Of a DNA stretch of 64,000 bases, positions 3,940-40,736 are shown piece by piece. Each line of letters starts with the position of its first letter. Positions within the stretch are counted from its first letter, which is position 1. The stretch lies in contig JAFSAT010000040.1 of the NCBI GenBank assembly GCA_017442185.1, positions 1 to 64,000 on the forward strand. Reading direction: 5' to 3'. The notes beneath the pieces were generated by a model, which was not told the DNA's origin, searched no databases, and worked only from the letters and a program-made list of their open reading frames with translations. The stretch is from Bacteroidaceae bacterium. Its GTDB lineage: Bacteria; Bacteroidota; Bacteroidia; Bacteroidales; Bacteroidaceae. The position numbers and the translations under genes were made by a program.

Positions 3940-4545
3940 ATGAAAAATATTGAAATAAAATCGGCACGCTTCGTAATAAGCAACACCGATATATCAAAAT
4001 GCCCCATGGACGGAAAGCCGGAATATGCTTTCATAGGGCGTTCCAACGTAGGAAAATCGAGCCTTATAAACATGCTCACACGCCACAGCAAATTGGCAAT
4101 GACCTCGTCGATGCCCGGCAAGACCATGCTCATAAATCACTTTATGATAAACAGCGAGTGGTATTTGGTGGATTTGCCGGGATACGGATATGCCAAACGC
4201 AGCAAGACACAAACCCGGACGCTCGAACACATAATAACAAGCTACATATTAGACCGAGAGCAGATGACACTGCTTTTTGTACTTGTAGATGCACGCCACG
4301 AACCACAAAAAATAGACTTGGAATTTTTTGAGTGGCTCGGAGAGAACAGCGTCCCATTTGCCATCATATTCACAAAAGCCGACAAGCTCAAAAAAACAGA
4401 GCTGAAAAGCAACATAGAGGCATACAAGAACAGACTTTTGGAACAATGGGAGGAGCTGCCGCCCACATTTGTAACATCGTCCGAAACAGCCCTCGGACGC
4501 GAAGAGCTGCTGAACTATATTGTCACAATAAACGAAACAATTTAA
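3940..4545 (+). CDS. engB: Ribosome-biogenesis GTPase EngB/YsxC
   Basis: EngB (YsxC/YihA) is an essential small GTPase of the TrmE-Era group that acts in assembly of the large ribosomal subunit. The 201-residue length is typical. Visible motifs are the G1 loop G-R-S-N-V-G-K-S (33-40), G3 D-L-P-G-Y-G (78-83), G4 T-K-A-D (145-148), and a G5-like T-S-S-E near 175. The gene opens a plus-strand group with the TlpA-like, TM2 and DUF2752 genes, 16 bases before the next start. Its promoter faces that of recR. Confidence 0.96.
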
Positions 4546-4561
4546 CAGGAACAAACCAAAT

Positions 4562-5662
4562 ATGAAAAAGATTGCACTAATCGCCCTTATACTGTCAACA
4601 ATAACAGCGTGCAACACAGATGGTTATAAAATAAAAGGCAAGTACCCCGATGCACCCGACGGAACAAAGGTATATATAGCCCGTATCGACGAGAATTTCA
4701 CTTATACCGACTCGGCCATGGTAAAAGACGGCACATTTGAACTTTCCGGATGCACCGACAGCACAAATGTAAGAATGTTACTCTCGTCGATAGCCATAGA
4801 TGGCGGCCCCATAATATTGGAAAAAGGTACAATAAAAGTTCTCTTTGGCAAAAACTTTCATCGGGGAGGAACACCCCTGAACGACAATTTGGAAAAATTC
4901 TACGCACAACGTGCAAAGATGCACCACAAAGTAAAAAACATCGTCGATTTCCTCGATGAACACATAAACATAAGCAACGAGCAACGCGACAGTCTGCAAC
5001 ATGCAATGTCCGAAGCAAAAAGCGACTTTGTAAGCACCCTGCAAGAGGTTATGGGCGGCAACATGAATAACCTGCTGGGCGCCTTCCTTATCACACAATC
5101 AGAGGAGTATTTCACCCCCGAAGAGTTCTTTTCCATAATGTCGCAAGTGCCCCAACATCTGCGCGACAAACGATTCAATGCCATGTACGAAAGAGTATCG
5201 GATGTGATGGCTGTTAAAGAGCGAGCACTTGCCACTTCAATAGGCAAGAAATATATAAACTTTGAATTGCCGGACAACAACGGCAAACAGATACTATTCT
5301 CGGACATTGTAAAGAGACACAAATACACCCTGCTCGACTTTTGGGCAAGCTGGTGTCCACCCTGCCGCCAAGAGATGCCCGTTATTAATGAAATTTACAA
5401 GAAATATCGCAATAAAGGATTGGCTGTGGTAAGTTTGTCACTCGACAGCAACAACGACGAGTGGCAAGAGGGAATATCAACACTCGATATGCAGTGGACA
5501 CAGCTGTGTGAGCCAAAGTCGGGAAGTGCAGAAGTTGCATCGGCCTACGGAATAGAGAAGATACCAACCACACTTCTGATTGACTCCGAAGGAAAAATCA
5601 TTCTTCGCGGCGTGCCGGCCTATCGCATAGCCGAAAGTTTAGATAAATTATTAAACCCATAA
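4562..5662 (+). CDS. TlpA-like thiol-disulfide oxidoreductase lipoprotein (DUF4369-type N-terminus)
   Basis: A 366-residue predicted lipoprotein: a short signal peptide ends in I-T-A-C with the lipidated Cys at 17. Residues 20-110 look like the beta-rich DUF4369 domain of Bacteroidota oxidoreductases, and a helical linker fills about 110-220. Residues about 230-366 form a thioredoxin-fold AhpC/TSA-TlpA domain with the redox motif W-C-P-P-C (Cys265, Cys268) and the cis-proline region I-P-T-T near 338. It probably reduces or isomerises disulfides, or supports cytochrome maturation, in the periplasm. The partner is not known. It follows engB closely and precedes a TM2 gene by 12 bases. Confidence 0.9.
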   Translation: MKKIALIALILSTITACNTDGYKIKGKYPDAPDGTKVYIARIDENFTYTDSAMVKDGTFELSGCTDSTNVRMLLSSIAIDGGPIILEKGTIKVLFGKNFHRGGTPLNDNLEKFYAQRAKMHHKVKNIVDFLDEHINISNEQRDSLQHAMSEAKSDFVSTLQEVMGGNMNNLLGAFLITQSEEYFTPEEFFSIMSQVPQHLRDKRFNAMYERVSDVMAVKERALATSIGKKYINFELPDNNGKQILFSDIVKRHKYTLLDFWASWCPPCRQEMPVINEIYKKYRNKGLAVVSLSLDSNNDEWQEGISTLDMQWTQLCEPKSGSAEVASAYGIEKIPTTLLIDSEGKIILRGVPAYRIAESLDKLLNP

Positions 5663-30284: not shown

Positions 30285-30965
30285 TTAGCAGCAGGGGCAG
30301 ATGGCTGAAACCACAACTACGGCTGCAAAACCGAGGATGATGAGAGTGGTAACAATGTTACCGATGCAACGCCAACGACCGAACCAAACTTTATTGTTCC
30401 AACCCAATGTCTGAAGAGCGCTCCAGAAACCATGTGTAAGGTGGAACCACAGAGCTGCAAGCCAAACTATGTATGCTGCAACATAAACAGGGTTGGCAAA
30501 AGTTGAAGCAATGTGATATGCACCATCTGCCGCATACGTTACATCAACATTGGCGCCTACCATGTGCATAACCTCAACAAGCTGCATCTTAGCCCAGAAG
30601 TTGAAAAGGTGCAGGCCTAAGCCCAAAAGAACAATAATTCCGAGAGCAAACATATTTTGCGATGCCCACTCTACCTCTTTAGGTCGCTTCTTGTCGGCAT
30701 AATCCTGAGTGCCGCGAGCCTTCTTATTCTGAATTGTAAGAATGAAAGCATATACAAAATGCACAACTACAAGAGCGGCAAGGCCCGCTGTTGCAACCAA
30801 TGCATACCAGTTTGCTCCCAAGAACTCACAAATCATGTTGTAGGCCTCGCCACTGACAAGCGCAACCAAGTTCATTGACATGTGGAAAAGCAGAAAGAGA
30901 ATGAGGGCAAGACCCGACACACTCATAATTACCTTCTTTCCCACAGAAGAATTAAGTAACCACAT
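30285..30965 (-). CDS. sdhC: Succinate dehydrogenase/fumarate reductase cytochrome b subunit (type B)
   Basis: A 226-residue membrane anchor with five predicted helices (about 13-35, 54-78, 100-118, 150-172 and 198-220). Conserved histidines in F-H-M-S-M-N, V-V-H-F-V-Y and F-H-L-T-H-G-F-W are the likely axial ligands of two b haems. It connects the complex to menaquinol. It is the first gene of sdhCAB, and a minus-7 box at 31037-31044 gives a leader of about 65 bases. Cytochromes of this type belong to the Bacteroides/Wolinella class that has one large haem subunit. Confidence 0.93.
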   Translation of the reverse strand: MWLLNSSVGKKVIMSVSGLALILFLLFHMSMNLVALVSGEAYNMICEFLGANWYALVATAGLAALVVVHFVYAFILTIQNKKARGTQDYADKKRPKEVEWASQNMFALGIIVLLGLGLHLFNFWAKMQLVEVMHMVGANVDVTYAADGAYHIASTFANPVYVAAYIVWLAALWFHLTHGFWSALQTLGWNNKVWFGRWRCIGNIVTTLIILGFAAVVVVSAICPCC

Positions 30966-31036
30966 AATAAATTGATATTAAATTATTTAATGAATAAAAT
31001 GATTAAAATTCAAACTTATACACCTTTTACAATTAG

Positions 31037-31068
31037 CAAAAATAAAGTTTTTTTATGAAAATAACCAA
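31037..31068 (-). promoter_or_regulatory. Promoter of sdhCAB
   Basis: On the minus strand TTGG (31065-31068), a 20-base spacer and TATTTTTG (31037-31044) fit the consensus with one change in the minus-33 box. Confidence 0.5.
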
Positions 31069-31107
31069 TTGTGACGAAAAAAATGTTTAATATTTAGTAA
31101 CGGTTTA

Positions 31108-31247
31108 AGAAGCTGTTTAAATTTATATCGCTAAATTTTCAAATAGAGCGAAAAAGAGATAAACAGACATTTTGTATATAAAAAATAGCAAAACGAACAA
31201 TACAGTTTCTCTTAAGAAAATATTTTTAAGAAATTTAAACAACTTCT
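31108..31247. repeat. Palindromic dispersed element between sdhC and the SEL1-protein gene
   Basis: Exact arm AGAAGCTGTTTAAATTT at 31108-31124 and inverse arm AAATTTAAACAACTTCT (one mismatch) at 31231-31247. It is 140 bp long. Its right part is homologous to the reverse complement of the element at 21610-21717, and it has about 30 extra bases in the middle. The gap 30966-31383 otherwise holds only the two divergent promoters. Confidence 0.8.
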
Positions 31248-31274
31248 AATACTTCACATTTTATAATAGGAGAC

Positions 31275-31306
31275 TTTGTTTATATCGTTTCTTTTGTTTA
31301 ATTTTG
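31275..31306 (+). promoter_or_regulatory. Promoter of the four-gene exported cluster
   Basis: TTTG (31275-31278), a 20-base spacer and TAATTTTG (31299-31306) give a full consensus match, pointing at the SEL1-protein gene. Confidence 0.65.
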
Positions 31307-31383
31307 CACAATAATATATAAAAATCATAAATACAGCCATTTCTTATATGGCAAAAAGGATGTCGCTCACTAAAAAACAAAGC

Positions 31384-33648
31384 ATGAAAATCATAATATC
31401 AACATTGATTGCTCTGCTATGTTGCACACAAGTTACAGCTCAGCAGGGCATTACTCGCGACAAATTGCTGAGAATGTACTATAAGGCAAACACAGCAATG
31501 GAGAACGGGCAGGATAGCATTGCCGAGGCAACCTTAAAGGAGATTATAAAAGAGGTACCCTACTATTCGGCTCCCTATCTGAAACTTGCACAATTATACG
31601 ACGGCAAAAGAGCCGACAGCCTATATCTGCAAGCCTCGATACTCATGTACCGTAAATTTGTTGATATAGAACTAAATAACGAAAAGCGCAACGAAGCTCT
31701 TGCCCGCCTTTACGAACTTGAGGAACAGATTGGAGCACCACATTTCGCCGAATATTCCGAAACAGCGGAATACACCCCCGACAACAGCAACATGATACCC
31801 GGGAGCGAAGAGGAGATTGAACAAATCATAGAATTCAAAGGCGAAGAGATACAATTTACCATAGAAATACCCGAAGAGCAGGAAAAGCAGCCTGAGACAA
31901 ACAGTCAGGCAAAACAAGACGAGGTTATCATAGAGCAAGTACCAATGGAAATAGAGATAAACATACCATTGGGAGAGGGAGTGACTGATACCCCATCGGA
32001 AAACCAAGAGCCTGTTGCAGAGCCGGAACCAACAGCAGAAACAAAAGAACCTCAACCCGATGCGACAACCCCCATGCCGGAGCACATGCTCATACCCGTA
32101 ATACCTGAAAACACATACAAAAAAGCAATAACAGCCTCCACAATGGAGAGCAGTAAAATTATCGGACGATGGGTTTCAGGCAGCAGAATGCCCAACGGAC
32201 GCGAGACGTGGATACTCGATATTACACAAATAGACGACATGCTGCGTATCACACTCAACAACAATTCCGGAGTATTCTTAGCACCCGAATTAGAGGAGAC
32301 AATAAAGCAGAAAGCTGAAAATATGTTCAATTTCCGCGGCTACAAGTTGCACAACCTCACATACAGCAACCACATAAGCTACGCGATGGACGAATACTAC
32401 GGCAGCGACATCAGTAGCGAGACAATGGAACTCTTTGCGGCAAGCCTTGAGCAGCAAACCGTACAAGGAGCCATAAAGAACAACCGTCTGCAATACACCT
32501 ACAAGATAAGCGAATCCTATACCCCCGACGATACAAAATACGAAAAAGAGAAAAACATCTGGCAAAAACTATCATCGGGGCTCGGGCATCTGTTAGGAGC
32601 AAGATTCGGAGCACTGATAGCAAGCACAAGCTCCGACATAATGACATACAAACGAGAAAACGACAAATTCATAAAGATTGAAGGCACACTAACCTTCAGC
32701 ATGGCAATGGCCAACTGCGGAATGCGCGGACGCTGCTACGAAACTATCACACACGTCAACAGCGAAGGCATAAAACGTGAAAAACAGAATAACATATTCA
32801 ACTGCTCATTCTACAAAGTCCCCGAAGGTTATGCAGGCAGCGACACATACATGAGCTCAAAAGATGCACAGCAAATAGAAAGAGAAAAAGCACTGTTGAA
32901 AGAGAGCGAGAAAAAATATCGTGATAACCCCGGCACACTGCACTACCTGAGAGGAATTGCCGAAACCTACGGAATAGGCGAGGCCGATTCAGGAATAACC
33001 CCCAACTACATAAACGGACTGAAAAACTTTGTAAGAGCAGCTGAACATGGCAACAAAGATGCACTCGCCTTAGTGGCTTCGCTCTACTACGACCTATCCA
33101 TGAATCAGCAATACAGCAACAGCCAGAGACGCAACTACCAAACACTTGCCGAAAAATGGAGCAACAAGCTGAAAGATTCGGATAAATGCCAATACAACAT
33201 GATAATGGCAAGCTACCATCTTATATACCACAAATTCAATAAATACAACGAAGCGATAAGACTTTACAAAGAAGCCATCGACACATACGACAGCAACGAA
33301 GCGCGTCTGACACTTGCCGATATATACCTATCAGGCTCGCCCATGCAAAAGAAAGAGGGCCTGCTGCTCCTTGAAAAAGCAATAGAGGCCAACTACACTC
33401 CGGCCATATTGAGAATGGCACAATACCACAAAGAGAACAATCCCGAGATGTTTATATCACTGTGCGAAAAAGCCCTCACACTTGGCGACAACAACGCCAA
33501 TAACATGCTTGCACTTGCCTATCTTCAGGGCATAGGCGTAGAGCAAGACTACATAAAATCAAACGAGCTGCACAACACATACAAAGCCGGCTCAAAACAG
33601 CCTTGGATTGAAATATTCGACTCTAACGGATTGACATACCACGAATAA
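31384..33648 (+). CDS. Exported SEL1/TPR repeat protein of unknown function
   Basis: A protein of about 754 residues. The start at 31384 (M-K-I-I-I-S-T-L-I-A-L-L) gives a standard signal peptide ending V-T-A-Q; an upstream in-frame ATG at 31348 would add 12 residues. TPR-like helices cover about 25-110, and a Glu/Pro-rich linker spans about 120-235. A central domain of about 200 residues has no name I recognise. The C-terminal third (about 520-750) has SEL1-like helical repeats such as A-L-A-Y-L-Q-G-I-G-V. It is probably a periplasmic or outer-membrane scaffold. It leads a four-gene cluster of exported proteins ending at the TIR gene. Confidence 0.8.
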   Translation: MKIIISTLIALLCCTQVTAQQGITRDKLLRMYYKANTAMENGQDSIAEATLKEIIKEVPYYSAPYLKLAQLYDGKRADSLYLQASILMYRKFVDIELNNEKRNEALARLYELEEQIGAPHFAEYSETAEYTPDNSNMIPGSEEEIEQIIEFKGEEIQFTIEIPEEQEKQPETNSQAKQDEVIIEQVPMEIEINIPLGEGVTDTPSENQEPVAEPEPTAETKEPQPDATTPMPEHMLIPVIPENTYKKAITASTMESSKIIGRWVSGSRMPNGRETWILDITQIDDMLRITLNNNSGVFLAPELEETIKQKAENMFNFRGYKLHNLTYSNHISYAMDEYYGSDISSETMELFAASLEQQTVQGAIKNNRLQYTYKISESYTPDDTKYEKEKNIWQKLSSGLGHLLGARFGALIASTSSDIMTYKRENDKFIKIEGTLTFSMAMANCGMRGRCYETITHVNSEGIKREKQNNIFNCSFYKVPEGYAGSDTYMSSKDAQQIEREKALLKESEKKYRDNPGTLHYLRGIAETYGIGEADSGITPNYINGLKNFVRAAEHGNKDALALVASLYYDLSMNQQYSNSQRRNYQTLAEKWSNKLKDSDKCQYNMIMASYHLIYHKFNKYNEAIRLYKEAIDTYDSNEARLTLADIYLSGSPMQKKEGLLLLEKAIEANYTPAILRMAQYHKENNPEMFISLCEKALTLGDNNANNMLALAYLQGIGVEQDYIKSNELHNTYKAGSKQPWIEIFDSNGLTYHE

Positions 33649-33664
33649 AAAGCACAAGAACGCG

Positions 33665-34741
33665 ATGAAAAGAATTGCAACATTAGCAATAATATCAATA
33701 ACCCTGATTATCACAGCAAACGCACAAAGCAAGATACAAGCCGAGATAATAGAGGCTCTCGGATTGCCGGCAAGTGAATATCGGGAAGAAACACTCAACG
33801 CACCCTCCATAAAAAAAGAGATAACCGTTGAGTATGACAAAAACGGCGAACTTTTGCACATAGGCGTAAACATATTCGGAAAAAGAATGAAGCAACAATA
33901 TGCCACCCCTATATGCAATTTCATAGAACGACTGTTGCTCGAACTATGTATAAAAGAGAAAGAGACACAAGCAGCGTCGCACCTGAACGCCAAAAGAATT
34001 GAAATATTATACAATGGAATCCCCTATGGAAAGAGCGGTTTCAGAAACATAAACAGTATGCTCGGGCAGATGACCGACATCACCACATTCACATCCTCGC
34101 ACAATGGAAAGATGTACCATGCTCACATGGAATATGGTGCCAACAGCATAGATTTCAGTTTTCCGGCATCAAGAGAACTGATTCAAGGAACAGACAAAAA
34201 AGAGGCCGACGAAGCCATAGCACGCCTGCTTCGCGGCAACTTAGAGCCACGCAAATACACAAAATCATACGAAGCACAAAAAAAGAGTGGAGCACTATAC
34301 ATAAGTTATAGCAAACATTTCATGCTCGACTCAATAAACAACCAAATATTTTTAGAGAAAAAAAACAGCTCTTACACACCCGTGTATAACAAAAAGTACA
34401 CAATGGAGAGCATAAAAAACACATTCACTGGCGCCTGCCCCACAAACCTGAAACTGAATGTCAGCCACAAGGTGTTCAACAAAAACTTAAAATACACAAT
34501 ACCCTTAGAGAAAATATTCTCGGCATTTGAGAAAGATTACGAATGTTTCACAGCCGTCAGCGAAACGGGCAAAGGACAAATTGAGGTAATGACCATATTC
34601 CTGAATAACGACTGCAACTATATACACATGCTTATAACAAAAATCTCCAAAGAGAATTTTTGGAAACATGGCATCACTGCTGAAGCCATTTTGCACAGCA
34701 ACATACCACAACACAACATAAAAGACCTGTTGAAAAAATAA
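33665..34741 (+). CDS. Exported protein of unknown function
   Basis: A 358-residue protein with a clear signal peptide (M-K-R-I-A-T-L-A-I-I..., cleavage after T-A-N-A near 20). The mature part is rich in Lys, Glu and Asn, with mixed alpha/beta character and no cysteine pair, lipobox or enzyme motif that I recognise. It starts 16 bases after the SEL1-protein gene and ends 16 bases before the next gene, so it is cotranscribed in the exported cluster. I give no function. A fold prediction would be the first useful test. Confidence 0.75.
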   Translation: MKRIATLAIISITLIITANAQSKIQAEIIEALGLPASEYREETLNAPSIKKEITVEYDKNGELLHIGVNIFGKRMKQQYATPICNFIERLLLELCIKEKETQAASHLNAKRIEILYNGIPYGKSGFRNINSMLGQMTDITTFTSSHNGKMYHAHMEYGANSIDFSFPASRELIQGTDKKEADEAIARLLRGNLEPRKYTKSYEAQKKSGALYISYSKHFMLDSINNQIFLEKKNSSYTPVYNKKYTMESIKNTFTGACPTNLKLNVSHKVFNKNLKYTIPLEKIFSAFEKDYECFTAVSETGKGQIEVMTIFLNNDCNYIHMLITKISKENFWKHGITAEAILHSNIPQHNIKDLLKK

Positions 34742-34757
34742 TAAAACAACATAAATC

Positions 34758-35738
34758 ATGAGAAAGAAAGGATTATTACTAATTGCAACCATGCTGCTAT
34801 CAATGACAGCACATGCACAGCTCGACCTTGTGACAGTCGAGATAACCGACGGCATTAGCGACACAACCCTTAAAGAGACCATCGAAAGCAATGCCACAAT
34901 TTTGATAAGCGAGTTTAATCGCACCATTATGGAAGGCGGCAAGCCCAAGCTGCCAAAAAGCATTTGCAGCAAAGAGACAACAGAAGATATTCTGAAAATG
35001 TGGAAGTCGAGCCCAATGTCGTGCCCCGTTTCAAGCATAAAGGAGAAACTGCTGTCAAGCCCCGGAGGTTACCAAATTCGTAATATCCCCATCACTTTGA
35101 TGAATGCCCCCGACGACAAAGCCGACCAAGACCTTGTAATAAACTTCACCAACACCGGCGAGATTGACAACGTGATGATAGCCATCGACGAGAACCGCTA
35201 CCTCGACGTGATAAGCGCCAACATATCGGTAAACGACCTGTCGCGCCGTCAGATAATTGTAGACTTCGTAGAGAACTTCAGAACAGCATACAACAGAAAA
35301 GATATCAATTTTCTTAACTCGGTATTCAGCGACAACGCCCTCATAATCACCGGAAAAGTAATAAAAGTAAAGAAAAATTCAGATATGGCCGGCAGTCTGA
35401 TGAGCCAAGAAAAAGTGATATATCAGAAACAGAGCAAGGCGCAATATCTCGAAAATCTAAAACGTTGTTTCAAAAGAAACAAATATATCGACATAACTTT
35501 CGACAGCCTCGAAGTGCTCAGACATCCACGCTACGATGACATCTACGGAGTAAATCTAAAGCAATATTGGAATTCCAGCACATATAGCGACATTGGCTAT
35601 GTATTCCTGCTCATCGACTTCAAGGATGACGCACAGCCCTGCATACAGGTGCGCACATGGCAACCCGAAAAATACAACGGCAAACAGATAAACCGAAACG
35701 AGATATTCACACTAAGTTCATTCAATATAAAACGATAA
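34758..35738 (+). CDS. Exported protein with possible NTF2-like C-terminal domain
   Basis: A 326-residue protein with a signal peptide ending A-H-A-Q at 21. Residues about 25-165 are an unnamed alpha/beta region. The C-terminal half begins with a helix and the run F-R-T-A-Y-N-R-K-D-I-N-F-L-N-S-V-F-S (about 180-197), followed by D-N-A-L-I-I-T-G and several beta strands. That order resembles the cone-shaped NTF2/SnoaL fold, but this is inferred from the pattern alone. It lies in the four-gene exported cluster, five bases before the next gene. Confidence 0.72.
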   Translation: MRKKGLLLIATMLLSMTAHAQLDLVTVEITDGISDTTLKETIESNATILISEFNRTIMEGGKPKLPKSICSKETTEDILKMWKSSPMSCPVSSIKEKLLSSPGGYQIRNIPITLMNAPDDKADQDLVINFTNTGEIDNVMIAIDENRYLDVISANISVNDLSRRQIIVDFVENFRTAYNRKDINFLNSVFSDNALIITGKVIKVKKNSDMAGSLMSQEKVIYQKQSKAQYLENLKRCFKRNKYIDITFDSLEVLRHPRYDDIYGVNLKQYWNSSTYSDIGYVFLLIDFKDDAQPCIQVRTWQPEKYNGKQINRNEIFTLSSFNIKR

Positions 35739-35742
35739 AAAC

Positions 35743-37062
35743 ATGAAAAAGATTTTATTACTCTTTTTAACAATGATGCCCCTGTGCACATGGGCACAGA
35801 TGAAATTAGAAGTAACAGACATCAGCGATCCCACCGGCGTTTACTCCTGCGAGGATAGAAACGAGATGAAAGTAATCTTCTACTGCGACTCGTCACTGAC
35901 CCTTAAGTTCCGTTCGAGCTACAACGATGTAATATCGGCAAAAAAGAGCCTCGAAGGCACAACCACATCCTACGAGATAATACTCCCCACAAATGCACGA
36001 GGAACATCCTACGACGGCCGTATATTCGAGGTATATGCCGACGGATTCGACCCCACAGAATTTGTTCAGTTCAACCATCCCAAAAGCACACTGCTCGAAT
36101 ACAAAGTAACCAACCAATATATTAAAGCAAAAAATCCCTACTACAAGTGCATTTACACTGCCGAAGAGCACTTTAAGAACTACAAGTACGAGGATGCCAA
36201 AAATCAATATCTGATGTCTAAAGAGTATCCCGAATATGAAGGATACAAAGAATCAGTTGACGATAAAATAACACAAATAGACTCTATCATACGCTGGCGC
36301 AACGAGGCCAACGACTTGCTGACAGATGCAAAATACATCGAAGCATATAACACATACAAAAAAATCATCATGCTTAATCCCAACGATAAATTCGTTGAGA
36401 TAAAAATGAACGATTGCAGCGTGCGTTACAAGAGCGATTGCAACATCTATTTCTCAAGAGCCGAAGACCTATACTACAACAAAAAATACAAAGAGGCTCT
36501 CGACTTGTACCAAAAGGTTCTGGATATGGACTGCTCACAATCTACGTCGGCAAATGAGAGAATCATATTCATACAAAACGAAATTCAATCCAAGAAAGAT
36601 AAGAACAGCATTCTTCTTTATGAGTGGTCGGAGGAGATGGTATTCGGACTTACCATTGGAAAGTGTAAAGATAACAAATGGGGCGGATACTTCAGCCTTC
36701 ACTTGAACGAAGATATTTTTGAATTCCCCAAGAGCAAAAAGGACCCCAGCAAATTTGGCGAGGCAAGTGCATCGTTCGGTTGGACAAAAAAGATTGTAAA
36801 ACCTGTGTGGCTGCACTTCGGTATCGGATATGCCGGCGGTGGTTACTTTGAACTTGACGAAGAGAATAATTACTACGACGAAGAGGAGGAGGATTATACT
36901 CTCAATTGGTACAACAGCATTGCACCCGAAGTTGGAGCTATCGTGAAATTCTGGCATGTCACTCTTAAGTATACATTTCAATACAGATATTGTATCAACG
37001 AAGAGGACGAAGAGGCTTTGGGAACACAGCGTCACTTCATAGGAGTGGGATTCTGCTGGTAA
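35743..37062 (+). CDS. Exported TPR protein with beta-rich C-terminus
   Basis: A 439-residue protein with a signal peptide ending T-W-A-Q near 19. Residues about 20-125 are a beta domain and about 130-280 hold TPR-like helix pairs (A-E-E-H-F-K-N-Y-K-Y-E-D-A and Y-N-K-K-Y-K-E-A-L-D-L-Y). The last 140 residues alternate polar and aromatic residues in short strands and end in G-V-G-F-C-W, reminiscent of an outer-membrane strand with a terminal aromatic residue. It may anchor at the outer membrane. It is the last gene of the exported cluster, before a 23-bp terminator stem. Confidence 0.75.
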   Translation: MKKILLLFLTMMPLCTWAQMKLEVTDISDPTGVYSCEDRNEMKVIFYCDSSLTLKFRSSYNDVISAKKSLEGTTTSYEIILPTNARGTSYDGRIFEVYADGFDPTEFVQFNHPKSTLLEYKVTNQYIKAKNPYYKCIYTAEEHFKNYKYEDAKNQYLMSKEYPEYEGYKESVDDKITQIDSIIRWRNEANDLLTDAKYIEAYNTYKKIIMLNPNDKFVEIKMNDCSVRYKSDCNIYFSRAEDLYYNKKYKEALDLYQKVLDMDCSQSTSANERIIFIQNEIQSKKDKNSILLYEWSEEMVFGLTIGKCKDNKWGGYFSLHLNEDIFEFPKSKKDPSKFGEASASFGWTKKIVKPVWLHFGIGYAGGGYFELDEENNYYDEEEEDYTLNWYNSIAPEVGAIVKFWHVTLKYTFQYRYCINEEDEEALGTQRHFIGVGFCW

Positions 37063-37087
37063 AAAAAAGACAATAAGGTATTTATAT

Positions 37088-37138
37088 AAAATTATCAGAG
37101 CGTCAAAAAAGTTGTTTTTTTGACGCTCTGATAATTTT
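37088..37138. terminator. Bidirectional terminator between the exported cluster and the TIR gene
   Basis: A perfect 23-bp inverted repeat (37088-37110 and 37116-37138) with core CAGAGCGTC/GACGCTCTG and a five-base loop. A and T runs on both sides serve the two convergent units. Confidence 0.92.
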
Positions 37139-37165
37139 ATCTGTTTAAGTAAGCTACACAAGGAG

Positions 37166-38461
37166 TCATTCCACATACACCGGACGTATCGCAAAGCCGA
37201 CAGCTTTCAGCTCTTCGGCAACATTTTGCACAGTATCGTCAAAACCTATTCTGAATGCTTTTGTAACAACTTTATCGGCAGTTCCGGTCCAATAATATCC
37301 GTGCATTCCCACGTGGAACACAACACTCCCCTGACGAAGCCCCGATGCCGGCAAGAAGATGGCGTTACCGTTAGGCCCTACAACCTTATATCCGTGCATT
37401 CCGTTATATGTACTCCACTGCCACTGACATTTTTGCAACAGCTCCTCGACCTCGTGTTTATCGGGCAGTCGCCACCCACTGCCCCACTCGGCCGTTGCCG
37501 CGTCGTAATCGGTTGCGCTTATATCGCCTACATCCTTACATTCAGCCTCGTCTCCATGCGAATATGTCTCCCAATTGTAGGTGTTTTTATGCGTTGTCTC
37601 ACCCCACGCATAGTAGTGTCCGCATCCCTCGGGATATGTCGCACCCAGATTATATCCTGCCCAAGATACGGAAAGTCCAAGGTCTACTATTTGGTCGACA
37701 GAAACGGGAACAGCTTGCAATTCCTCGGCTGTTAATCGGCCTGCTTGATTGTCGGTGACCGACAAATCTTGTTCATCACCCCCCTCTTTTGTCACCATAT
37801 TCGGAATTAAAATTATTGCCAAAAGCGCAAGAAGAATCAATGAAACAACCATCAAGATACTCTTTTTACTGCCACGCGAATCTACGGGCCGGAGCCTCTC
37901 TTTAGCTGATGAAACGGTTTCAGATGTTTCGACAGGCGTTTGTTTGGGGAAATATTCTTGCGGCTCTATTTTATGAACAAGCTGCTCCGGCTCTGAGTGC
38001 TCCCCGTCATGCTCCGGCTCTACGGGTGGGGTATCGTTTGCAACAACAGGCTGCACAAGCTCACGCCCCAACAGACGCCCGACATTATCGCGCAATTCAT
38101 CAAACCCCTGCTCAATGTCGGGAAAGGCATCTATCCAATTTATATTCTTAAGGTAGTACTTTTTTGCTCCTTGAAACTCAACGTCGGCAATTCGGCATGT
38201 TAAAATGGGTTTACCATCTTCGCTTGCAATCTCAATCTCGCGGTCGACCTGTCGCGAACGATTGAAATTGTCCGAAAAAACCACAAGCATCATGCTGCTG
38301 TTGTCGAGCGCCGAAATAATCTCTTCGGCCCACACCTTTCCTTTGGGTATATCACGAAAAGCAACAAAGCAACGCACATCGCACTCCTCGAGATGCCTGC
38401 AAATGCTTTGAACCGCATCTTTATCTTTGCTGGAATAACTTATAAAAACATCGTATCTCAT
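37166..38461 (-). CDS. TIR domain - transmembrane - FISUMP domain protein
   Basis: A 431-residue protein with three parts. Residues 1 to about 132 form a TIR domain: Y-D-V-F-I-S-Y-S-S-K-D at 3-13, a BB-loop-like R-D-I-P-K-G at 36-41, and S-R-Q-V-D-R-E at 69-75, whose Glu75 is at the place of the NAD-cleaving glutamate of enzymatic TIRs. An acidic/proline linker follows, then a basic patch and one membrane helix (about 202-220). Residues about 258-431 match the FISUMP-type domain (Y-Y-A-W-G-E, W-R-L-P, I-F-L-P-A-S-G, Y-W-T-G, I-R-P-V). By the positive-inside rule the TIR is cytoplasmic and the FISUMP part faces the periplasm. Its role is unknown; a receptor is my inference. Confidence 0.85.
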   Translation of the reverse strand: MRYDVFISYSSKDKDAVQSICRHLEECDVRCFVAFRDIPKGKVWAEEIISALDNSSMMLVVFSDNFNRSRQVDREIEIASEDGKPILTCRIADVEFQGAKKYYLKNINWIDAFPDIEQGFDELRDNVGRLLGRELVQPVVANDTPPVEPEHDGEHSEPEQLVHKIEPQEYFPKQTPVETSETVSSAKERLRPVDSRGSKKSILMVVSLILLALLAIILIPNMVTKEGGDEQDLSVTDNQAGRLTAEELQAVPVSVDQIVDLGLSVSWAGYNLGATYPEGCGHYYAWGETTHKNTYNWETYSHGDEAECKDVGDISATDYDAATAEWGSGWRLPDKHEVEELLQKCQWQWSTYNGMHGYKVVGPNGNAIFLPASGLRQGSVVFHVGMHGYYWTGTADKVVTKAFRIGFDDTVQNVAEELKAVGFAIRPVYVE

Positions 38462-38486
38462 AGCATAGTGTCTTGTCTACAAAAAG

Positions 38487-38494
38487 CAAATATA
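38487..38494 (-). promoter_or_regulatory. Minus-7 box of the TIR gene, inside repeat unit 1
   Basis: TATATTTG on the minus strand, 25 bases before the start codon. The same octamer recurs in each repeat unit (38572, 38657) and in the partial fourth (38742). The nearest minus-33 candidate is imperfect (CTTG, 22-base spacer). Confidence 0.5.
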
Positions 38495-38749
38495 TAAACA
38501 AACGAGCAAGAAATATCAAGCTTGCTTGAATATTTTTCACAGCGAGTGAAGAATATATTCGAGGTTTACCTCAAATATATAAACAAACGAGCGAGAAATA
38601 TCAAGCTTGATTGAATATTTTTCACAGCGAGAGAAGAAAATATTCGAAGTTTACTTCAAATATATAAACAAACGAGCAAGAAATATCAAGCTTGCTTGAA
38701 TATTTTTCACAGCGAGTGAAGAAAGTATTCGAAGTTTACTTCAAATATA
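38487..38749. repeat. Three 85-bp tandem repeats upstream of the TIR gene
   Basis: Units at 38487-38571, 38572-38656 and 38657-38741, with eight bases of a fourth (CAAATATA, 38742-38749). Units differ at a few positions, six between units 1 and 2. Each unit can form three hairpins: AAATATCAAGC-TT-GCTTGAATATTT, TTCAC-AGCGA-GTGAA, and GAGG-TTTA-CCTC inside an AT stem. The gap 38462-38864 holds these repeats, the TIR promoter and the mnmG promoter. Confidence 0.92.
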
Positions 38750-38787
38750 GCAAAAAAGAGCTATATTAACCCTTATTAAGCCGCAAA

Positions 38788-38819
38788 TTTCGCTGTTCAA
38801 ATAAAATACATTACTTTTG
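38788..38819 (+). promoter_or_regulatory. Promoter of mnmG
   Basis: TTTC (38788-38791), a 20-base spacer and TACTTTTG (38812-38819): a full minus-7 box and one mismatch in the minus-33 box. Confidence 0.6.
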
Positions 38820-38864
38820 CACATGGTGGCAAACAACGCCGGATGATGTAAAAAATATATACAG

Positions 38865-40736
38865 GTGACATTCAATTACGATATTTTGATTATAGGTGCA
38901 GGGCATGCGGGATGCGAAGCCGCTGCAGCTGCAGCCAATTTGGGTGCAAAAACATGTCTCATCACCATGGACATGAACAAGATTGCGCAAATGAGTTGCA
39001 ACCCGGCCGTAGGCGGAATAGCAAAAGGACAGATTGTGAGAGAGATTGATGCACTCGGAGGATATATGGGTATTGTAACCGACAGAGCTTCGATACAGTT
39101 TCGCATGCTGAACCGCTCGAAAGGCCCGGCCATGTGGAGTCCGCGTGCGCAGTGCGACAGAGTAAAGTTCAGCATCCTATGGCGAGAAATCCTCGAGAAT
39201 ATACCGAACCTTCACATGTGGCAGGATTGCGCCGTAGAACTCATTGTAGAGGACGGAAAGGCCGTTGGTGTATACACACAGCAGGGAGCAGAATTTCGTG
39301 CCCACAGCGTCATTATAACAGCCGGAACGTTTCTTAACGGACTCATGCACATAGGACGTGTAAAGATAGAAGGCGGACGAATTGCAGAACCTGCGGCAAA
39401 AGGCCTTACCGAGAGTATCGTAAAACACGGAATAAACATGGGGAGAATGAAAACCGGTACTCCTGTTCGCTTAGACAAACGCAGCATAAAGACAGAACTA
39501 CTTGATATTCAACATGGTGACAACGATTTTCATCATTTTTCGTACAACAATGTTACGCGCAATTTAGAGCAAAAAACGTGTTGGGCCTGCTACACAAACC
39601 CCGAAGTTCACGAAACACTGCGTAACGGGTTGGATGAATCGCCTCTATACAACGGACAGATACAAAGCATTGGCCCGCGATACTGCCCCAGCATAGAGAC
39701 AAAGATTGTGACCTTTCCTGAACGCGACCGTCACCTGCTGTTTTTAGAACCCGAGGGAGAGACAACGCAAGAGATTTACGTAAACGGATTCTCTTCTTCA
39801 CTCCCAATGGATATACAACTTACGGCACTTAGAAAAATCCCGGCACTCAAAGATGCAGTGGCCTACCGACCGGGATACGCAATAGAATATGACTACTTCG
39901 ACCCAACACAGTTGCGCCACACATTGGAGTCAAAGGTTGTAGAGAATCTGTTTTTTGCAGGACAGGTGAACGGAACCACAGGATACGAAGAGGCTGCCGG
40001 ACAAGGCATAATAGCCGGCATAAACGCAGCACTCAAAATACAAGGGAGAGAGGAATTTATTCTGCACCGCGACGAAGCATATATCGGTGTACTTATCGAC
40101 GACCTTGTAACAAAAGGAGTAGACGAACCATACAGAATGTTCACTTCGCGTGCCGAATATCGCATACTTTTACGCAGCGATAATGCCGACATCCGTCTAA
40201 CCGAACGAGCCTATAAAATAGGTCTTGCTACAAAAGAGCGCTACACCCGTCTTTTAGAGAAGCGAAAAAAAATTGCAGAATTAACAGAATTTATCGCAAA
40301 TTTCTCTGTAAAAGCCGAACTTATAAATAAAGGTTTGGAAGCGTTAGGCACCACCCCATTAAACAGAGGATGCAAATTGTGGGCAATCATTGAACGACCA
40401 CAGATAACCATAGAAAGCATTGCAGAATATATCGCACCGTTAAAATCAAGGCTGCAAAAATTGGGAGACGACCGCGAAGAGATTGTAGAAGCAACCGAGA
40501 TAGAGATTAAATACAGTGGTTATATTCTGAGAGAGAGAGAGCTGGCACAGAAGATGCAACGCCTCGAAAATATCCGCATAAAAGGACGATTCAACTACAA
40601 CACCATAGAATCGCTTTCGACCGAGGCCCGTCAAAAACTAACATCAATACAACCCGAGACTTTAGCACAAGCAAGCCGCATTCCGGGAGTATCACCAAGC
40701 GACATAAACGTGCTTCTCGTTCTTGCGCATAAATAA
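38865..40736 (+). CDS. mnmG: tRNA uridine-5-carboxymethylaminomethyl synthase MnmG (GidA)
   Basis: MnmG with MnmE adds the carboxymethylaminomethyl group to uridine 34 of several tRNAs. The protein is 623 residues, the normal length. The FAD-binding loop is I-G-A-G-H-A-G-C-E-A (11-20), and the family blocks C-N-P-A-V-G-G, R-M-L-N-R-S-K-G-P-A and G-T-F-L-N-G are intact, as is the C-terminal helical MnmE-binding region. The start is GTG at 38865; the only nearby ATGs upstream (38843 and 38846) are followed at once by a stop or are out of frame. It opens the mnmG-apt-uvrC-dtd-mazG-deoC group, and a parS-type palindrome begins two bases after its stop. Confidence 0.96.
   Translation: MTFNYDILIIGAGHAGCEAAAAAANLGAKTCLITMDMNKIAQMSCNPAVGGIAKGQIVREIDALGGYMGIVTDRASIQFRMLNRSKGPAMWSPRAQCDRVKFSILWREILENIPNLHMWQDCAVELIVEDGKAVGVYTQQGAEFRAHSVIITAGTFLNGLMHIGRVKIEGGRIAEPAAKGLTESIVKHGINMGRMKTGTPVRLDKRSIKTELLDIQHGDNDFHHFSYNNVTRNLEQKTCWACYTNPEVHETLRNGLDESPLYNGQIQSIGPRYCPSIETKIVTFPERDRHLLFLEPEGETTQEIYVNGFSSSLPMDIQLTALRKIPALKDAVAYRPGYAIEYDYFDPTQLRHTLESKVVENLFFAGQVNGTTGYEEAAGQGIIAGINAALKIQGREEFILHRDEAYIGVLIDDLVTKGVDEPYRMFTSRAEYRILLRSDNADIRLTERAYKIGLATKERYTRLLEKRKKIAELTEFIANFSVKAELINKGLEALGTTPLNRGCKLWAIIERPQITIESIAEYIAPLKSRLQKLGDDREEIVEATEIEIKYSGYILRERELAQKMQRLENIRIKGRFNYNTIESLSTEARQKLTSIQPETLAQASRIPGVSPSDINVLLVLAHK

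Follow-up and report, generated by a model that had tools for sequence, protein, structure and literature searches.

Among bacterial TIR proteins, the best known are soluble effectors that act in phage defense. A 64,000-nucleotide stretch of a Bacteroidaceae genome (assembly GCA_017442185.1, contig JAFSAT010000040.1, positions 1–64,000; hereafter the window) carries a gene that a preliminary description, made from the sequence alone, had read as a receptor-like protein in which a membrane helix joins a TIR domain to an extracytoplasmic FISUMP-like domain. This raises the question of whether such a protein could link events outside the cytoplasm to a TIR, and of what accompanies it in its genome (2.36 Mb, 94% complete). 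The arrangement we find suggests an envelope-watching signaling or defense device.

Anatomy and topology of the TIR–FISUMP protein

The reading frame opens with ATG, encodes 431 amino acids, and has exactly the coordinates given in the preliminary description (Table 1). Residues 5–123 match Pfam TIR_2 along profile positions 1–121 of 122, scoring 79.7 bits (cutoff 28; E = 3.3e-22), and nearly all of the best 50 Foldseek matches to this fold are TIRs (probability 1.00). The solved structures nearest to it by sequence are the TIRs of Hydra TRR-2 and MyD88, and we know of no report of either as an NADase. Structure prediction, which had been proposed for both domains, is confident for each: in a full-length AlphaFold2 (AF2) model built from 43 rows, pLDDT is ~94 for the TIR and ~97 for the FISUMP part, with disordered linkers at residues 153–198 and 220–255 on either side of the helix. 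The layout of TIR, helix, and FISUMP-like domain is borne out by Pfam TIR_2, hydropathy, AF2, and family homology, and is not due to chance.

Table 1. Coordinates of the features discussed, in positions of the window
Feature	Positions	Strand	Basis
Insertion between sdhC and mnmG, approximate extent	31090..38785		homology breaks vs 13 congeners
Operon gene 1, secreted TPR/SEL1 protein	31348..33648	+	Pfam; conserved in operon copies
Operon gene 2, secreted protein, family unassigned	33665..34741	+	conserved in operon copies
Operon gene 3, secreted, NTF2-like (Cds6_C, sub-threshold) region	34758..35738	+	Pfam
Operon gene 4, TPR and probable outer-membrane barrel	35743..37062	+	convergent with TIR gene
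Perfect hairpin between convergent operon gene 4 and TIR gene	37083..37143		25-bp stem, -32.4 kcal/mol
TIR–transmembrane–FISUMP-like protein, 431 aa	37166..38461	-	intact ORF and domains
FISUMP/Lcl_C-like domain, residues 257–430	37172..37693	-	AF2 model, Lcl-CTD fold match
Transmembrane helix, residues 200–222	37796..37864	-	hydropathy and AF2
Basic patch RGSKK, residues 196–200, cytoplasmic side of helix (predicted)	37862..37876	-	charge counts
TIR domain, residues 1–131	38069..38461	-	Pfam TIR_2, AF2, Foldseek
Glu75 codon, aligned with catalytic Glu of NAD-cleaving TIRs	38237..38239	-	alignment
Tandem 85-bp repeat (3.1 copies), 5' of TIR gene	38487..38749		repeat analysis

The only strongly hydrophobic segment comprises residues 201–219 (SILMVVSLILLALLAIILI; Kyte–Doolittle 3.23), within the AF2 helix, and no signal peptide was seen by eye at the N-terminus. 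Charges flanking the helix are 6 K/R vs 3 D/E before it and 1 K/R vs 5 D/E after it; the related proteins of L016 and L214 clearly share this inside bias, and those of L113, L193, L208, and L009 show it more weakly. This bias supports the membrane tether with the TIR inside and the FISUMP part outside the cytoplasm, i.e. a predicted N-in, C-out, single-span protein with a cytoplasmic TIR and a periplasmic FISUMP-like part. The basic patch reported earlier is real, but it was wrongly labeled a stop-transfer sequence: because RGSKK precedes the helix, the segment would be an uncleaved N-in signal anchor (type II). The term "surface" sensor is likewise not supported, since an anchor in the inner membrane of a Gram-negative would leave the FISUMP domain in the periplasm.

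The C-terminal domain shares 39–52% identity with FISUMP-type domains found within this bacterial family, and the full-length query finds matches in at least 250 of 399 family genomes, mostly to this part. TIGR02145 scores 16 bits on it, below the curated cutoff of 41.65 (of 30 close relatives, 14 match the model with E no higher than 0.1), and the best Pfam match, Lcl_C/DUF1566 (PF07603), reaches 24.3 bits, below its cutoff of 34.9, while a PF09603 search of the 431-residue protein reported no match. As curated cutoffs are missed and family homology is present, "FISUMP-like" is the accurate wording. The fold search with the whole model was topped only by TIR-type matches, and the domain was therefore folded alone (pLDDT 93.6); its best fold match is the Lcl C-terminal domain (8q4e) at a probability of 0.75 and a nonsignificant E of 0.4, and the venom C-type-lectin-like chains 1c3a, 3gpr, and 1v4l are weak matches. 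The C-terminal domain of Legionella Lcl is C-type-lectin-like and trimeric, and binds sulfated glycans (PMC11162425). Other FISUMP-type domains in the same genome, 39–49% identical, lie in tandem on contig C6 and singly on C13 (L002–L006). Prevotella Lak phages of ~540 kb (MK250015–MK250019, MK250029) also carry a FISUMP-like domain, 28.5% identical to that of the window.

Glu75 and the case for NAD cleavage

Residue 75 is, as described, a glutamate of the catalytic type. It is invariant in an alignment of the eleven nearest TIRs and retained by all 60 ungapped members of a broader set of Bacteroidales TIRs, in which residues elsewhere vary (Q71 in 14 and R36 in 21 of 62). Such invariance amid drifting positions argues for constraint. 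A Glu of this type occurs in more than 70% of all TIRs and alone does not predict NADase activity (PMC7075850). Less weight thus falls on Glu75 as an NADase sign than the preliminary description had laid on it, and NADase activity of the protein is plausible.

Membrane forms recur in a modular TIR family

The named relatives are metagenome-assembled Bacteroidales genomes (Bacteroidales, Rikenellaceae, Lentimicrobiaceae, Marinilabiliaceae, and Alistipes). Within the TIR clade of the window protein, whose members are mostly 57–67% identical, the TIR is carried on several C-terminal modules: FISUMP without a helix in the two closest homologs (L008 and L010), helix and Lcl_C in L009, Lcl_C without a helix in L013, and SEL1 repeats in L011, L014, and L017. 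By eye, none of eight SEL1-type relatives has a helix after the TIR. In the same clade, a single 765-residue chain (L016:4936-7233) combines a kinase, TIR, zinc ribbons, one helix, and FISUMP. Other TIR classes also form TIR–TM–FISUMP (G070, L113/L133; G186, L146) or TIR–FISUMP without a helix (G334, L149; G207, L021); TIR–(TM)–FGE proteins were also seen by eye among further TIR classes.

On the maximum-likelihood tree the TIR–TM–FISUMP label changes four times, with at least three changes forced by well-supported branches. TIR–TM–FISUMP thus arose at least three times, each time from another TIR branch, and the family is a modular one in which the membrane version is an option invented repeatedly. 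In the same tree, the TIRs of L208 and L214, which are linked to the operon, sit on very long branches, and their kinship to the others is tentative. A survey of TIR–FISUMP fusions, as had been suggested, cuts both ways: the membrane form recurs, but the helix-less proteins of L008, L010, L021, and L149 weaken a pure receptor reading.

The neighborhoods of these homologs show further features. Tandem TIR genes with differing C-terminal domains are frequent (L015, L193, L195, L196). Neighbors of the 765-residue chain are a secreted FGE-sulfatase protein and a kinase–SH3 protein, and a large gene with no Pfam match lies directly downstream of TIR–FISUMP in both closest homologs (L008:5671-8559 and L010:7213-9816; 63% identical). 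Contig C24 of the window's own genome encodes a 478-residue protein with a C-terminal TIR and, by eye, a SIR2-type-looking N-terminal part, adjoined by an ATPase-like gene (L047).

An insertion between sdhC and mnmG

The gene lies in an island of ~7.7 kb between sdhC (30285–30965, minus strand) and mnmG (from 38865, plus strand), which are divergent neighbors in at least 13 congeners; homology to 13 congeners ends at 31006–31090 and restarts at 38785–38871. Four genes for secreted proteins occupy its plus strand, and the TIR gene faces the fourth of these in convergent orientation. The preliminary description had overlooked both the island and its envelope operon. A full-length search found no TIR in sampled congeners among the matches listed, and none of the sampled congeners has the fourth operon gene.

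The hairpin between the convergent genes is, judging by its sequence, a probable bidirectional terminator. Rfam matches to eukaryotic miRNAs at this site fall far below gathering scores, reflect the perfect hairpin alone, and are rejected. Each copy of the 85-bp repeat bears a promoter-like TAnnTTTG box on the strand of the TIR gene. This repeat has 38 matches genome-wide (74–99% identical) and folds into hairpins.

An envelope operon with exchangeable partners

The fourth operon gene recurs, with operon order kept, in 22 of 399 family genomes, the window's own among them; at the level of the order, the count for the third is 39 of 354 genomes (35 of 200 genera). The probable barrel of the fourth gene is assigned because its positional counterpart in L201 encodes PEGA and OMP_b-brl_2. 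TIR–TM genes abut this operon in four independent loci. Besides the window, G070 has a different TIR–TM–FISUMP (26% identical) in the same convergent position, directly 3' of the last operon gene, next to operon proteins with 22–51% identity to those of the window. In G420 (L208) and G453 (L214), the TIR–TM gene is the first operon gene and overlaps the next.

Beyond the helix, the L208 and L214 proteins carry a MORN-like domain homologous to the tails of zinc-ribbon–TM proteins (L201, L203, L206, L210, and L211) and of a kinase–TM protein (L212). The zinc-ribbon–TM proteins occupy the same place in the operon, with a Tubulin_2 protein alongside. In L212 a Ser/Thr kinase–TM–MORN-like protein (3987–5537) adjoins homologs of the operon genes, the tail being kept and the cytoplasmic module swapped. 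The window's own genome has both operon types, the TIR type in the window and the Tubulin_2 type on contig C36 (L201), where the Tubulin_2 protein, of ~1030 residues, stands beside a zinc-ribbon–TM–MORN-like protein. Tubulin_2 is also present in L213.

Across the 34 other operon copies, ~0.14 TIR neighbors are expected vs 3 seen, a rough estimate on a small, post hoc sample that assumes ~4 TIR genes per genome, ~2000 genes, and two flanking genes per operon copy; 31 of the 35 copies surveyed have no adjacent TIR gene. These neighborhoods point to swappable cytoplasmic signaling modules on a common envelope system. An undescribed envelope-spanning system of Bacteroidales, in which a secreted and outer-membrane set works with an inner-membrane protein bearing an exchangeable cytoplasmic part (TIR, Ser/Thr kinase, or a zinc ribbon paired with a Tubulin_2 GTPase), is a tentative and somewhat doubtful extension. 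If it holds, such a system would answer events in the periplasm through NAD, phosphorylation, or the cytoskeleton.

Proposed mechanism and alternatives

Sequence and models provide a TIR, a single helix, a FISUMP/Lcl-like domain, Glu75, and repeated operon linkage, from which we infer a periplasmic location, a ligand, clustering, and NAD cleavage. We propose, with a probability of roughly 0.4, that the protein is bitopic in the inner membrane and acts as a counterpart of Toll-like receptors with the domain order inverted, an envelope ligand clustering the TIRs and NAD being cleaved via Glu75. Specifically, the periplasmic domain would bind an envelope-derived ligand or a neighboring operon protein; ligand binding, or trimer-like clustering, would let the cytoplasmic TIRs meet across flexible linkers; and the clustered TIRs would cleave NAD, giving NAD loss or a cyclic ADP-ribose signal when the envelope is damaged or a phage enters. 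In favor are the anatomy and orientation, the conservation of Glu75 (60/60), at least three TIR–TM–FISUMP assemblies, the repeated operon neighborhood, and the tendency of TIRs in these clades to join modules of ligand-binding type (FISUMP, Lcl_C, FGE, and SEL1). Against it stand the helix-less TIR–FISUMP proteins, the 31/35 operon copies without a TIR, the failure of Glu75 alone to predict an NADase, nearest TIR structures from Hydra TRR-2 and MyD88, and scores that fall short of every PADLOC and NCBIfam system model.

The insertion is sporadic and missing from sampled congeners, as would fit a stand-alone sensor of abortive infection whose lectin-like part sees a phage or foreign ligand and whose TIR kills by NAD loss, the operon being a mere co-traveler. 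FISUMP-like domains in Prevotella Lak phages, and the proposal that TIRs with a C-type-lectin fold are antigen sensors in conflict systems (PMC10907252, PMC7159879), also favor it. However, three further independent loci also have TIR–TM genes next to this operon, no reverse transcriptase and hence no diversity-generating element is present in the 94%-complete genome, and no known PADLOC system was found; we consider this reading unlikely. Rather unlikely, too, is a signaling scaffold making nonenzymatic contacts with other TIR proteins, with Glu75 kept for fold or contacts. The frequency of Glu at this position in the TIRs of TLR1/2/6/10 (PMC7075850) speaks for it, as do the tandem TIR genes common around homologs and the TLR/MyD88-type TIRs among the best sequence and structure matches. 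It fits poorly with a Glu75 that is wholly invariant while the remainder of its helix drifts. In addition, most characterized bacterial TIRs act on NAD. Finally, the free shuffling of C-terminal modules on these TIRs and the extreme commonness of FISUMP-type domains (at least 250/399 genomes) could mean that the architecture is incidental, with no special operon link and a FISUMP part for adhesion or oligomerization only; the recurrent, independent assembly of TIR–TM–FISUMP and the repeated operon adjacency (3 seen vs ~0.14 expected, as a rough estimate) make this quite improbable.

Comparison with known systems

Each domain is already known, as is the idea of a TIR with a C-type-lectin-type sensor; new here is a TIR–TM–FISUMP gene in an insertion, beside a four-gene secreted/outer-membrane operon. 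In the open-license literature we found no description of a recurrent membrane TIR–FISUMP and envelope operon with exchangeable partners, and no papers on TIR with FISUMP or FGE-sulfatase with TIR in those words.

The protein shares its TIR domain with PADLOC TIR-TM and Thoeris ThsB, and TIR-TM also implies a membrane-linked TIR, but these matches are weak (E = 0.008 and 4e-9) and cover TIR residues only, and neither a CD-NTase nor a ThsA partner is seen in the neighborhood. Thoeris, CBASS, or another known PADLOC system is rejected, with no PADLOC or NCBIfam model near cutoff and envelope proteins as neighbors. Known phage or plasmid cargo is likewise rejected: phages, plasmids, and viral contigs gave no full-length match, only separate FISUMP or TIR pieces. 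Legionella Lcl offers the best Pfam and fold match of the C-terminal domain; by contrast, the match is below cutoff, its fold E is 0.4, and Lcl, a collagen-like adhesin that is secreted, has no TIR.

Bacterial conflict systems have been proposed to use TIRs with C-type-lectin-fold modules, cytoplasmic or periplasmic, as sensors (PMC10907252, PMC7159879). The window protein would likewise couple a TIR effector to a putative C-type-lectin-type module. Unlike these TIR/CLec/FGE proteins, it has a FISUMP/Lcl-like C-terminal domain, and no STAND, MoxR, or vWA partners are seen beside its gene. They are also often targets of diversity-generating retroelements, a status that we reject here: the 94%-complete genome has no RVT_1 and no reverse transcriptase or template repeat, and its other FISUMP genes, none a template-like copy, show only 69–78% DNA similarity over short stretches.

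Animal Toll-like receptors offer a further parallel, with a single span, a cytoplasmic TIR, and an extracytoplasmic sensor-like domain (here predicted). The window protein is not homologous to them as a whole and is not a family member: its TIR is N-terminal and its ectodomain C-terminal, it has a predicted N-in signal anchor in a bacterial inner membrane, and it carries a FISUMP/Lcl-like domain where they have LRRs. The locus gives testable proteins, partner genes, and a Glu75 mutant, and if the proposal is true, it would show how bacteria might couple TIR signaling to what happens beyond the inner membrane, as animals do with Toll-like receptors.
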